Positions 10,016-14,600 of a DNA stretch of 64,000 bases are shown here, piece by piece (the first letter of the stretch is position 1; each line of letters starts with the position of its first letter). A program made the translations under genes and the position numbers. The notes below the pieces were generated by a model. The model had not been told where the DNA came from. It saw only the letters and a list, made by a program, of their open reading frames with translations, and made no database searches. The DNA is from Fimbriimonadaceae bacterium (GTDB taxonomy: Bacteria > Armatimonadota > Fimbriimonadia > Fimbriimonadales > Fimbriimonadaceae), in NCBI GenBank assembly GCA_019638675.1, contig JAHBTE010000001.1, positions 776,605 to 840,604 on the forward strand, written 5' to 3'.

Positions 10016-10471
10016 CTACGCGCGGACGATGGTTGGCTCAACGTTAATCGAAACTTTGTCGCGAATCGCGTTGGTGATGATGCAGTAAAGGTCAGCCTTG
10101 TGCGCCATTTCGTCGGCCAGCTTGACTTGATCATCGGTTGCATCTGCCGCTAAGGTGATCGTTGGCTTAAGGATCACGCTTTTGTAAGTGAACGATGGCC
10201 CGTTTTCTTCCACTTCGCCAGTTGCGTGAGTTTCGATATTCACAAACGGCAATCTGCGCGCTTCTGCGACGATTCCAAAAGTAATGGAGTAGCATCCAGC
10301 CACCGCTTTCGCGAGAAGTTCTTCGGGATTAGTGCCAGAACCAGGGCCGCCGAACTCTTCGGGGACACTCAGTGGAGATTGAACACCGCTTCGGTCGCCA
10401 GCTAGGGTTCCGTTGCCCGTTCGTCCACCCGACCAGTTCACGGTCACCGGATATTCATGTAATTTCGCCAT
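10016..10471 (-). CDS. OsmC/Ohr-family peroxiredoxin-like protein
   Basis: 151 residues, the normal OsmC length. Family members are dimeric thiol peroxidases acting on organic hydroperoxides. The two redox cysteines are present, in AVAGCYS and in ADLYCIITNAI, together with the GTNPEELLAKAVAGC helix typical of the OsmC subgroup. The N-terminus (VNWSGGRTGNGTLAGDRSGVQSPLSVPEEFGGPGSGTNPE split over the first 50 residues) matches OsmC more than Ohr. Monocistronic. A TAGAAT box ends 8 bases before the ATG (10480-10485, minus strand), near the leaderless spacing seen elsewhere. Confidence 0.92.
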   Translation of the reverse strand: MAKLHEYPVTVNWSGGRTGNGTLAGDRSGVQSPLSVPEEFGGPGSGTNPEELLAKAVAGCYSITFGIVAEARRLPFVNIETHATGEVEENGPSFTYKSVILKPTITLAADATDDQVKLADEMAHKADLYCIITNAIRDKVSINVEPTIVRA

Positions 10472-11315: not shown

Positions 11316-12473
11316 TTATCCTTGACCGTCGTCAAGGGTGATAGTGAGCGATTTGGTTTCCCCTCGGCTCCAAACCTTGACATTCAGTTTGTCACCTGGT
11401 TTTTTGTCCGCCATCAGCACCTGATAGTCTTCGGTGGCGTTCATTTTTTTGCCATTGATTTCGGTCATGATGTCGAGCGTTCGCAGACCAGCTTTTGTGG
11501 CTGGGCCATCGTAGACTTCGGTAACAATCACACCCTTTGAAGGAGGTTCGGTGGTTGCGCCAACTTCCTCCATCAGTTTTTTGCGGATGCCGTCAATTCC
11601 GAGAATGCTTGAATCATTGCGAACGGAAATACCAATTCGCCCATACCGAGCATGACCGTACTTGATGAGTTCAGCGACAACGTCTTTCACCCGATTGATC
11701 GGAATCGCAAACCCAATACCAACCGAACCTTGGTCAGTGGATGCGATCATGGTGTTGATGCCCACCAAACGGCCTTGCGAATCGCACAGTGCGCCACCGG
11801 AGTTGCCTTTATTGATTGCCGCATCAGTTTGCAGACCGTCAACAAAAATTGCGTAATCCTGTGACTTGAGCGGTCGGCCCTTGCTGGAAATAATCCCAAC
11901 CGAAACAGTTTGTTCAAATCCAAGCGGGTTACCCGCCGCGATCACCCATTCTCCGACTTCTATGGCTTCCGAGTCTCCAACTCCGATGGGCTGTAAATTT
12001 TGGTAATCCACTTTTAGAACAGCGAGATCAGCGCGTGGATCGGCCCCTATCAGCTTCCCCGGAACAGTGTCGCCGTTGCTGAACTTCACGATGATCTGGT
12101 CGGCGATTCTCCTACCGCCCGAAGTCACAACGTGGTAATTGGTGACGATATGACCTTCTTTACTGAGGATGACCCCAGAACCGGAACCGGATGGCTCGAT
12201 GTATTTTTCACCGAACCAGTTTTCGCCTTCCATCAAAGTAGTAATGCTCACAATGCTGGGCAAAATGTGTTTGGCGGCGGCTCTGAAATCAGGTAGTGAC
12301 TTTGCGGCATCCTGAACTTCGATCGGCGTGGTTGGAGCCGAGTTCATCACAATCGGCGATGACTCCTTGTTAGCAAAGGGAGACATAGGGAACAAGCTCA
12401 TTGCCGCAAACGATGCGGCGAACGCCGTTACAAAAATTCCCACCCCAACCAGCAATACATTTTTTGCCTTCAT
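11316..12473 (-). CDS. HtrA/DegS-like trypsin-type serine protease with one PDZ domain
   Basis: Envelope quality-control protease, 385 residues. An N-terminal membrane anchor or signal (about 5-30) is followed by a trypsin-like domain with the catalytic triad H114 (TNYHVV), D149 (RADLAVLKV) and S225 (GNSGGAL), then a single PDZ domain (GVIVTEVYDGPATKAGLRTLDIMTEIN spread over about 312-370). One PDZ resembles DegS or the HhoA/HtrA type rather than DegP. It lies 72 bases downstream of the selW-like gene on the same strand and could share its transcript; TATTAAAT about 50 bases upstream is another possible promoter. GGATAGGG upstream of the ATG may serve as ribosome site. Confidence 0.93.
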   Translation of the reverse strand: MKAKNVLLVGVGIFVTAFAASFAAMSLFPMSPFANKESSPIVMNSAPTTPIEVQDAAKSLPDFRAAAKHILPSIVSITTLMEGENWFGEKYIEPSGSGSGVILSKEGHIVTNYHVVTSGGRRIADQIIVKFSNGDTVPGKLIGADPRADLAVLKVDYQNLQPIGVGDSEAIEVGEWVIAAGNPLGFEQTVSVGIISSKGRPLKSQDYAIFVDGLQTDAAINKGNSGGALCDSQGRLVGINTMIASTDQGSVGIGFAIPINRVKDVVAELIKYGHARYGRIGISVRNDSSILGIDGIRKKLMEEVGATTEPPSKGVIVTEVYDGPATKAGLRTLDIMTEINGKKMNATEDYQVLMADKKPGDKLNVKVWSRGETKSLTITLDDGQG

Positions 12474-12545: not shown

Positions 12546-12782
12546 CTACTTTGAGTTGAATTTTTGGTAAGCGGAAATGATCTCTTCGTTGGTCGGTTTT
12601 TCGCCACGATTTTCGCGATTAGTCCAAATGATTTGGTCGCCTGATCGGACTTCCAATATCCCGCCATCACCTTTGACGAATTCGGAATCAACGTTGAATT
12701 GAGCCTTTAGCAAATCAGCCACCCGGGCTGCATGTGGCATATAGTTTCAACGGACGCAGTATTCAATTTGAATAGTTGCCAT
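12546..12782 (-). CDS. SelW/Rdx-family selenoprotein with in-frame UGA (Sec) codon
   Basis: Small cytoplasmic thioredoxin-like redox protein of the SelT/SelW/SelH (Rdx) family, 78 residues if UGA is read as selenocysteine. The ATG at 12782 opens MATIQIEYCVR, then comes UGA (12749-12747), then NYMPHAARVADLLKAQF and a strand-rich C-terminus (GGILEVRSGDQIIWTNRENRG). The UGA is exactly codon 12, the U position of the family's CxxU motif (C9-V-R-U12), and the whole domain is only complete when both sides are joined. A reading starting at the downstream Met loses the catalytic motif. A TACAAT box ends exactly 6 bases before this ATG, independently supporting the upstream start. A hairpin with a G-rich loop follows the UGA. 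No selA/B/C/D genes are in this window. Confidence 0.88.
12716..12749 (-). promoter_or_regulatory. Candidate bacterial SECIS element with its UGA codon
   Basis: From the UGA (12749-12747), 16 bases lead to a stem CAGCC (12730-12726), loop CGGGT, and GGCTG (12720-12716), a perfect 5-bp hairpin with a G-rich loop at the distance seen in known bacterial SECIS elements. An alternative stem GCCAC/GTGGC overlaps it. Short stem, so moderate confidence. Confidence 0.55.
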
Positions 12783-12788
12783 ACAACT

Positions 12789-12794
12789 ATTGTA
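12789..12794 (-). promoter_or_regulatory. -10 box TACAAT of a leaderless transcript (selW-like gene)
   Basis: TACAAT on the minus strand ends 6 bases before ATG 12782. Confidence 0.65.
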
Positions 12795-13907: not shown

Positions 13908-14600
13908 GTGGCACGTCCCCTCCAACTCATGACCGTTGGGCTTTGCGTACTCCTGATCGGTGGCGCAATTTATCTGCAGGCTTCAAAACCAAGGTTTGAA
14001 AATGTCCGCAGCAACACGACGAATATCCAACAAACGCCGCGCCATCCGGTCACTCAGCAAATGGAAGTGGATGCTCAATCGTTTGTTGGGAATCAAGTGC
14101 CTGATTTTGAATTAAAAGATTCCGAAAGCAAGCTGGAGAAGCATTCGGATTTAATCGGAAACGGAAAACCATCTGTGCTGGTCATGACCAAAGATGGTTG
14201 CCCGTGCAGTATTGAATCTCAGCGCAACTGGACAGAACTATCAAAGTACTACGGAGATGCAGTTCAGTTTTTAGCAATCATGGATGCCGAGCCAGTCGCG
14301 ACAAAAAAATTTAAAACCGACTTTTCTGTACCTTATCCCATCCTTTCCAGCCCGGATGACAAAGTTTTTCGCGCGTTTGGAGCCAAGCAATCGGTTTATG
14401 TTTATCTGATGGATGGAACAGGGAAAGTTACCGCAGTCTGGCCGGGATACAACAAAGAAATGGTGACCGCCCTCAACATGCAACTGAGTGCAAGTACGGG
14501 CAAAGAGCCATGGCGAGACGAAATGATGATGGTGCCTGATGAAATGACAAGCGGTTGTTATTTCTTCCAGCCGGTTGGTACGGAAAAGCCAGCTTGGTAA
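13908..14600 (+). CDS. Membrane-anchored or exported thioredoxin-fold redoxin (AhpC/TSA-like)
   Basis: 230 residues. An N-terminal hydrophobic helix (about 6-25) anchors or exports it; the thioredoxin fold starts near residue 60 (GNQVPDFELKDSES). The active-site region is TKDGCPCSIESQ with C98 and C100, a CxC-type variant rather than the usual CxxC, followed by FLAIMDAEP and a cis-Pro-like VPYPILSSPDD strand. This matches AhpC/TSA-type redoxins; peroxidase or thiol-transfer function is not decided. The GTG start is set by the -10 spacing. Neighbours do not suggest a partner. Confidence 0.8.
   Translation: MARPLQLMTVGLCVLLIGGAIYLQASKPRFENVRSNTTNIQQTPRHPVTQQMEVDAQSFVGNQVPDFELKDSESKLEKHSDLIGNGKPSVLVMTKDGCPCSIESQRNWTELSKYYGDAVQFLAIMDAEPVATKKFKTDFSVPYPILSSPDDKVFRAFGAKQSVYVYLMDGTGKVTAVWPGYNKEMVTALNMQLSASTGKEPWRDEMMMVPDEMTSGCYFFQPVGTEKPAW

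Follow-up and report, generated by a model that had tools for sequence, protein, structure and literature searches.

A predicted SelW-like selenoprotein gene with an in-frame UGA and a covarying downstream hairpin in Fimbriimonadaceae

Introduction

SelW-like proteins are among the commonest bacterial selenoproteins (PMC2398784, PMC13188914). Among the selenoprotein families of the GOS marine metagenomes they are the largest (PMC2398784). In organisms that use selenocysteine (Sec) they are mostly Sec-only (PMC1794560), and a 2026 review lists them among its high-confidence predictions (PMC13188914). For Campylobacter jejuni SelW, translation through UGA has been documented by Ribo-seq and proteomics (PMC11955535).

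Here we describe a gene from a member of the Armatimonadota whose predicted product shares with C. jejuni SelW the Pfam family (PF10262), the CxxU site and a length of about 80 residues, but which differs in its phylum, in its probably leaderless mRNA and in its position ahead of an HtrA protease gene. Bacterial Rdx proteins of known structure (3dex, 2fa8, 2ojl, 2p0g and 2oka) have the same fold as our model (TM 0.74–0.83) and the same active-site position, but carry CxxC, with Cys in place of Sec. Within the same genome, the closest parallel is selD, a second UGA gene with a hairpin, which encodes a different protein and places its loop 33 nt past the UGA, versus 21 nt in selW.

Literature searches for selenocysteine with Fimbriimonas or Armatimonadota found no paper; matches for selenocysteine with Armatimonadetes concern other subjects, judging by titles and abstracts, and a survey of 5200 genomes (PMC5029168) makes no mention of the phylum in its main text. 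These searches agree with a preliminary description of the locus, made from sequence alone, which regarded Sec use in this lineage as little documented. The novelty is nevertheless smaller than that description implied, because SelW-like proteins are so common among bacterial selenoproteins: the gene is, we are confident, an addition to a known family, in a lineage for which we found no report of Sec.

Results

A frame that continues through UGA

The analyzed DNA (the window) is a 64,000-nt stretch of Fimbriimonadaceae bacterium assembly GCA_019638675.1 (contig JAHBTE010000001.1, positions 776,605 to 840,604). Its relevant features are as follows.

12546–12782, reverse strand: selW, predicted 78-residue Rdx-family selenoprotein (frame, PF10262 and TIGR02174 matches, AlphaFold model)
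12747–12749, reverse strand: in-frame UGA, codon 12, predicted Sec12 of CxxU (conserved in relatives; aligned with the second Cys of CxxC homologues)
12716–12730, reverse strand: candidate bSECIS hairpin CAGCC-CGGGU-GGCUG (covariation in 32 relatives; missing in Cys homologues)
12789–12794, reverse strand: putative −10 box TACAAT of a leaderless-type promoter (sequence; ends 6 nt ahead of the ATG)
12546–12740, reverse strand: 64-aa ORF given by ordinary gene calling, without the active site (ORF list; no Pfam match at E 0.001)
11316–12473, reverse strand: HtrA/Deg-type serine protease (trypsin and PDZ domains), directly downstream of selW
10016–10471: OsmC-type gene
13908–14600: AhpC/TSA-type gene

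The joined frame runs from the ATG at 12782 through MATIQIEYCVR-UGA-NYMPHAARVADLL... to a TAG stop at 12548–12546, giving a product that begins MATIQIEYCVRU-NYMPH, where U is the UGA codon and occupies the U position of the motif C9-V-R-U12. All sequence statements of the preliminary description were reproduced, including the start, the uninterrupted frame beyond the UGA, the −10 box at 12794–12789 and the reduction of the gene by ordinary calling to a 64-residue fragment that lacks the active site. That fragment matched no Pfam family at E 0.001. The joined product, in contrast, matched Pfam Rdx (PF10262) at E 4.4e-12 (46.5 bits, cut-off 22.6) and NCBIfam TIGR02174 (CXXU_selWTH) at 36.9 bits (cut-off 34.2). 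Against the Campylobacter SelTWH equivalog NF041051 it scored 64.7 bits, under the curated cut-off of 88, placing it by profile score as a relative of that family and not as that equivalog. With the Rdx match and a UGA retained in every genus relative that has the gene, the whole frame is far beyond chance.

The AlphaFold2 model, for which the window protein and five relatives served as input, reached a mean pLDDT of 88.4. Its best PDB matches were SelW-related structures (TM about 0.8), mouse SelW (2npb) appearing further down the list. The CxxC of the solved Cys homologues 3dex, 2fa8, 2ojl and 2p0g aligns with C9-V-R-U12, bearing out the earlier assignment of the UGA to the second redox position of the CxxU/CxxC motif; the TGC copy described below (L041) aligns there as well. 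By family, the product would be a CxxU thiol-selenol oxidoreductase. Peroxiredoxin-type genes, of the OsmC and AhpC/TSA types listed above, lie within about 2.5 kb of selW, a hint at function that is suggestive only.

The UGA is conserved across the phylum

SelW was found in seven of the eight genomes of the genus, each copy with one in-frame TGA at the same site. The closest named relative is Fimbriimonadaceae bacterium ACE_ARM8, whose sequence past the UGA is 95% identical, followed by Armatimonadetes bacterium Uphvl-Ar1 and other Fimbriimonadaceae. Across the phylum, 39 of 291 genomes had an Rdx match, and 38 of these 39 carried one in-frame TGA; the single exception, L041, reads TGC (Cys). 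Sequence comparison placed the UGA in 32 of the 38 UGA copies, at the CxxU site in every case (32/32). The preliminary description had proposed examining this residue in relatives, and among those compared it is Sec (UGA) or Cys, never degenerate.

Within the genus, pairwise differences in the codons ahead of the UGA numbered 44, 33 and 90 at codon positions 1, 2 and 3, versus a flat 285, 248 and 284 in the 60 nt 5′ of the start. Judged by such substitution patterns, purifying selection acts on the codons ahead of the UGA, and on those that follow it as well.

SelB was found in 142 of the 291 phylum genomes searched and in 34 of the 39 with SelW, the five misses being assemblies 72–88% complete; this co-occurrence test treats genomes as independent. 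In another genome of the phylum (G290:C31:2536-3663, forward strand), the selB match itself contains one in-frame TGA, which may reflect a frameshift, an error or decay.

Two SelW copies outside the phylum were also noted. A 690-kb Cytobacillus spongiae plasmid (NZ_CP089998.1) carries an unannotated SelW at about 370636–370874 (L079:281-519) with the motif CMRU, an in-frame TGA and the hairpin CCGCG-AGTTT-CGCGG, adjoining selD. A Candidatus Krumholzibacteriia MAG (JAOZPE010000017.1, L067), found with a Fimbriimonadaceae query, encodes a SelW with CVQU and TGA that shares an AACUA...GCCGCCAGGUUGG hairpin region with the Fimbriimonadaceae genes, possibly through horizontal transfer.

The genome encodes selenocysteine machinery and a second UGA gene

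The source genome (2.85 Mb, 98% complete) was searched family by family for selA, selB, selC and selD, a check that the preliminary description had proposed, and all four components were present: one tRNA-Sec (C1:909337-909427; 72.9 bits with the Rfam model, anticodon UCA by ARAGORN), one SelA, one SelB over its cut-off (a 612-aa open frame) and one SelD. Other Rfam tRNA-Sec matches, at about 47 bits, were rejected as tRNA-Ser or tRNA-Leu; only the 72.9-bit match had the UCA anticodon and ARAGORN support. selA, selB and selD exceeded curated cut-offs in all eight genomes of the genus.

The selD gene (locus L072, C1:651775-652689, reverse strand) itself carries an in-frame UGA, at the catalytic position of the motif CAGU, followed by the strong hairpin GGCGGAG-GUU-CUCCGCC, and the same arrangement of UGA and hairpin was seen in three further SelD genes examined in the genus. 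In one genome (G007, locus L028) SelD has Cys (TGT) at this position and no such hairpin in its sequence, a natural control for the link between UGA and hairpin. Another genome of the genus (G006) keeps selA, selB and a selD with in-frame TGA; SelW was searched for there and not found, so selW is dispensable; SelD may be the main or only selenoprotein of that genome.

Among other candidates, formate dehydrogenase alpha, a common selenoprotein, had no in-frame stop in the source genome. Comparison of the window with the syntenic region of a genus relative (G004) for conserved in-frame TGAs gave no further defensible candidate, the top rows being mostly antisense-frame artefacts.

A hairpin supported by covariation

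The selW hairpin spans 16–30 nt downstream of the UGA, with its apical loop 21 nt past it. The published bSECIS model specifies an apical loop of 3–9 nt with G in the first two positions, a stem of 4–16 bp, a distance of 16–37 nt from the UGA, and a minimum free energy of −7.5 kcal/mol or lower (PMC13188914). The geometry of the window hairpin (loop CGGGU, 5-bp stem, 21 nt) fits this model. Its free energy is marginal: −6.0 kcal/mol for the bare stem-loop, falling to −7.4 over 38 nt and −10.5 over 50 nt, where other or extra pairings enter as the predicted fold changes. Several relatives have hairpins of −8.6 to −13.6 kcal/mol, within the limit.

Taken singly, the window hairpin is no better than chance. 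Of 1000 synonymous recodings, 135 (13.5%) matched its −6.0 kcal/mol, and fold z-scores against shuffles were 0.6, 0.15 and −0.6. Conservation carries the case. At a fixed register, 98.1% of cells in the five-pair stem were paired across 32 relatives (L032, L039, L042 and L044, in which the motif was not placed, and the SelW of G076 and G111 being omitted). Two-sided changes occurred in three pairs, in 12 such cells, and the covariation score of 0.328 (0.130 when shuffled) was reached by none of 500 shuffles; shifting the stem register destroyed the signal. Perfect five-pair stems were present in 29 of 32 sequences, whereas synonymous recoding predicts 4.7 (P about 9e-24, on the assumption, not entirely true, that the sequences are independent). 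Among six Cys copies — one from the phylum and five plasmid-borne — only one or two of the five pairs form, and none has the stem (0/6). The preliminary description of a 5-bp hairpin 16 bases past the UGA is correct in position and pairing, but significance beyond chance emerges only across relatives.

Alternative readings of the UGA

Could the UGA instead mark a broken gene? A nonsense mutation at the Rdx Cys codon, or a sequencing error, would take little, UGA being one base from UGC and UGU, and a normal start and stop exist only for the 64-aa piece. Against this stand one in-frame UGA in all seven genus copies and in 38 of 39 across the phylum, and apparent purifying selection on both flanks in the genus; we consider the pseudogene reading refuted by a UGA conserved with an intact flanking frame in many species, and give it next to no probability. 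The in-frame ATG six bases past the UGA suggests another reading, in which translation begins at M15 (12740), the upstream part is unused and the product is a genuine short protein. However, many relatives have Thr, Leu, Ala or another residue at position 15, the codons upstream, that of Cys9 among them, are conserved, the modeled fold requires the first strand (residues 4–9) and the fragment has no Pfam match, making this reading very improbable.

The UGA might also be read as Trp or Cys, by reassignment or near-cognate readthrough, and Cys would indeed yield an ordinary CxxC protein. Yet of 40 long ORFs in the window that do not overlap one another, 7 terminate with UGA, which is therefore not reassigned throughout the genome; the organism has a dedicated tRNA-Sec along with SelA, SelB and SelD; the hairpin covaries; and the Cys copies of SelW and SelD examined lack it. 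The chance of such decoding appears very small. Codon 12 most likely inserts selenocysteine, and we put the probability that this is a SelW-like selenoprotein gene (Rdx/thioredoxin-like fold) at about 96%. The two central proposals of the preliminary description are thus well supported: that of a SelW-like selenoprotein by the Rdx match, the conserved UGA, the Sec machinery and the covarying hairpin, and that of UGA decoding as Sec by the complete machinery, the same hairpin and the UGA of selD itself.

Expression and genomic context

In the window and in two genus relatives (G004 and G003), the selW start is preceded by a TAnnnT hexamer ending 6 nt from it, other genus copies have AT-rich hexamers resembling a −10 box in this position, and TAnnnT occurs 5–7 nt before the start in several other Fimbriimonadales. 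Within the window, this hexamer precedes 13 of 132 first starts of long ORFs versus 16 of 773 inner starts, about five times more commonly. No Shine-Dalgarno sequence lies ahead of the window copy; some copies in more distant families have a Shine-Dalgarno-like GGAGG instead. On these sequence grounds, the selW mRNA is likely leaderless. The fuller proposal, that Fimbriimonadaceae insert Sec from a leaderless mRNA with transcription starting at or next to the ATG and the UGA at codon 12, we hold at slightly better than even odds.

The HtrA gene adjoins selW in six of the seven genus copies; this conserved proximity of a redox selenoprotein and a protease may reflect shared transcription or a stress link.

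Discussion

We propose that selW would be transcribed from a promoter close to its ATG. SelA would convert Ser-tRNA to Sec-tRNA with selenophosphate from SelD, and as the ribosome arrives at codon 12, the UGA, SelB carrying Sec-tRNA(Sec) would recognize the hairpin 16–30 nt downstream, with Sec inserted where termination is otherwise expected. The resulting 78-residue oxidoreductase, with its active site at C9-x-x-U12, would probably cycle through a selenenylsulfide, itself probably reduced by a low-molecular-weight thiol or thioredoxin.

With the recoded reading, a gene that is truncated in ordinary annotation regains its active site. Because nearly all copies in the phylum are Sec forms, searches of normal ORFs would miss SelW there almost completely, and the hairpin, which keeps a constant distance of 21 nt from the UGA, offers a covariation-based motif for finding more such genes. 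If the mRNA is leaderless, the whole bSECIS would lie within about 70 nt of its 5′ end, and SelB-dependent recoding would take place on ribosomes initiated without a Shine-Dalgarno sequence. More broadly, selenocysteine machinery is present in the Armatimonadota, a phylum that selenium biology scarcely mentions, with SelB in nearly half of the genomes searched (142/291).
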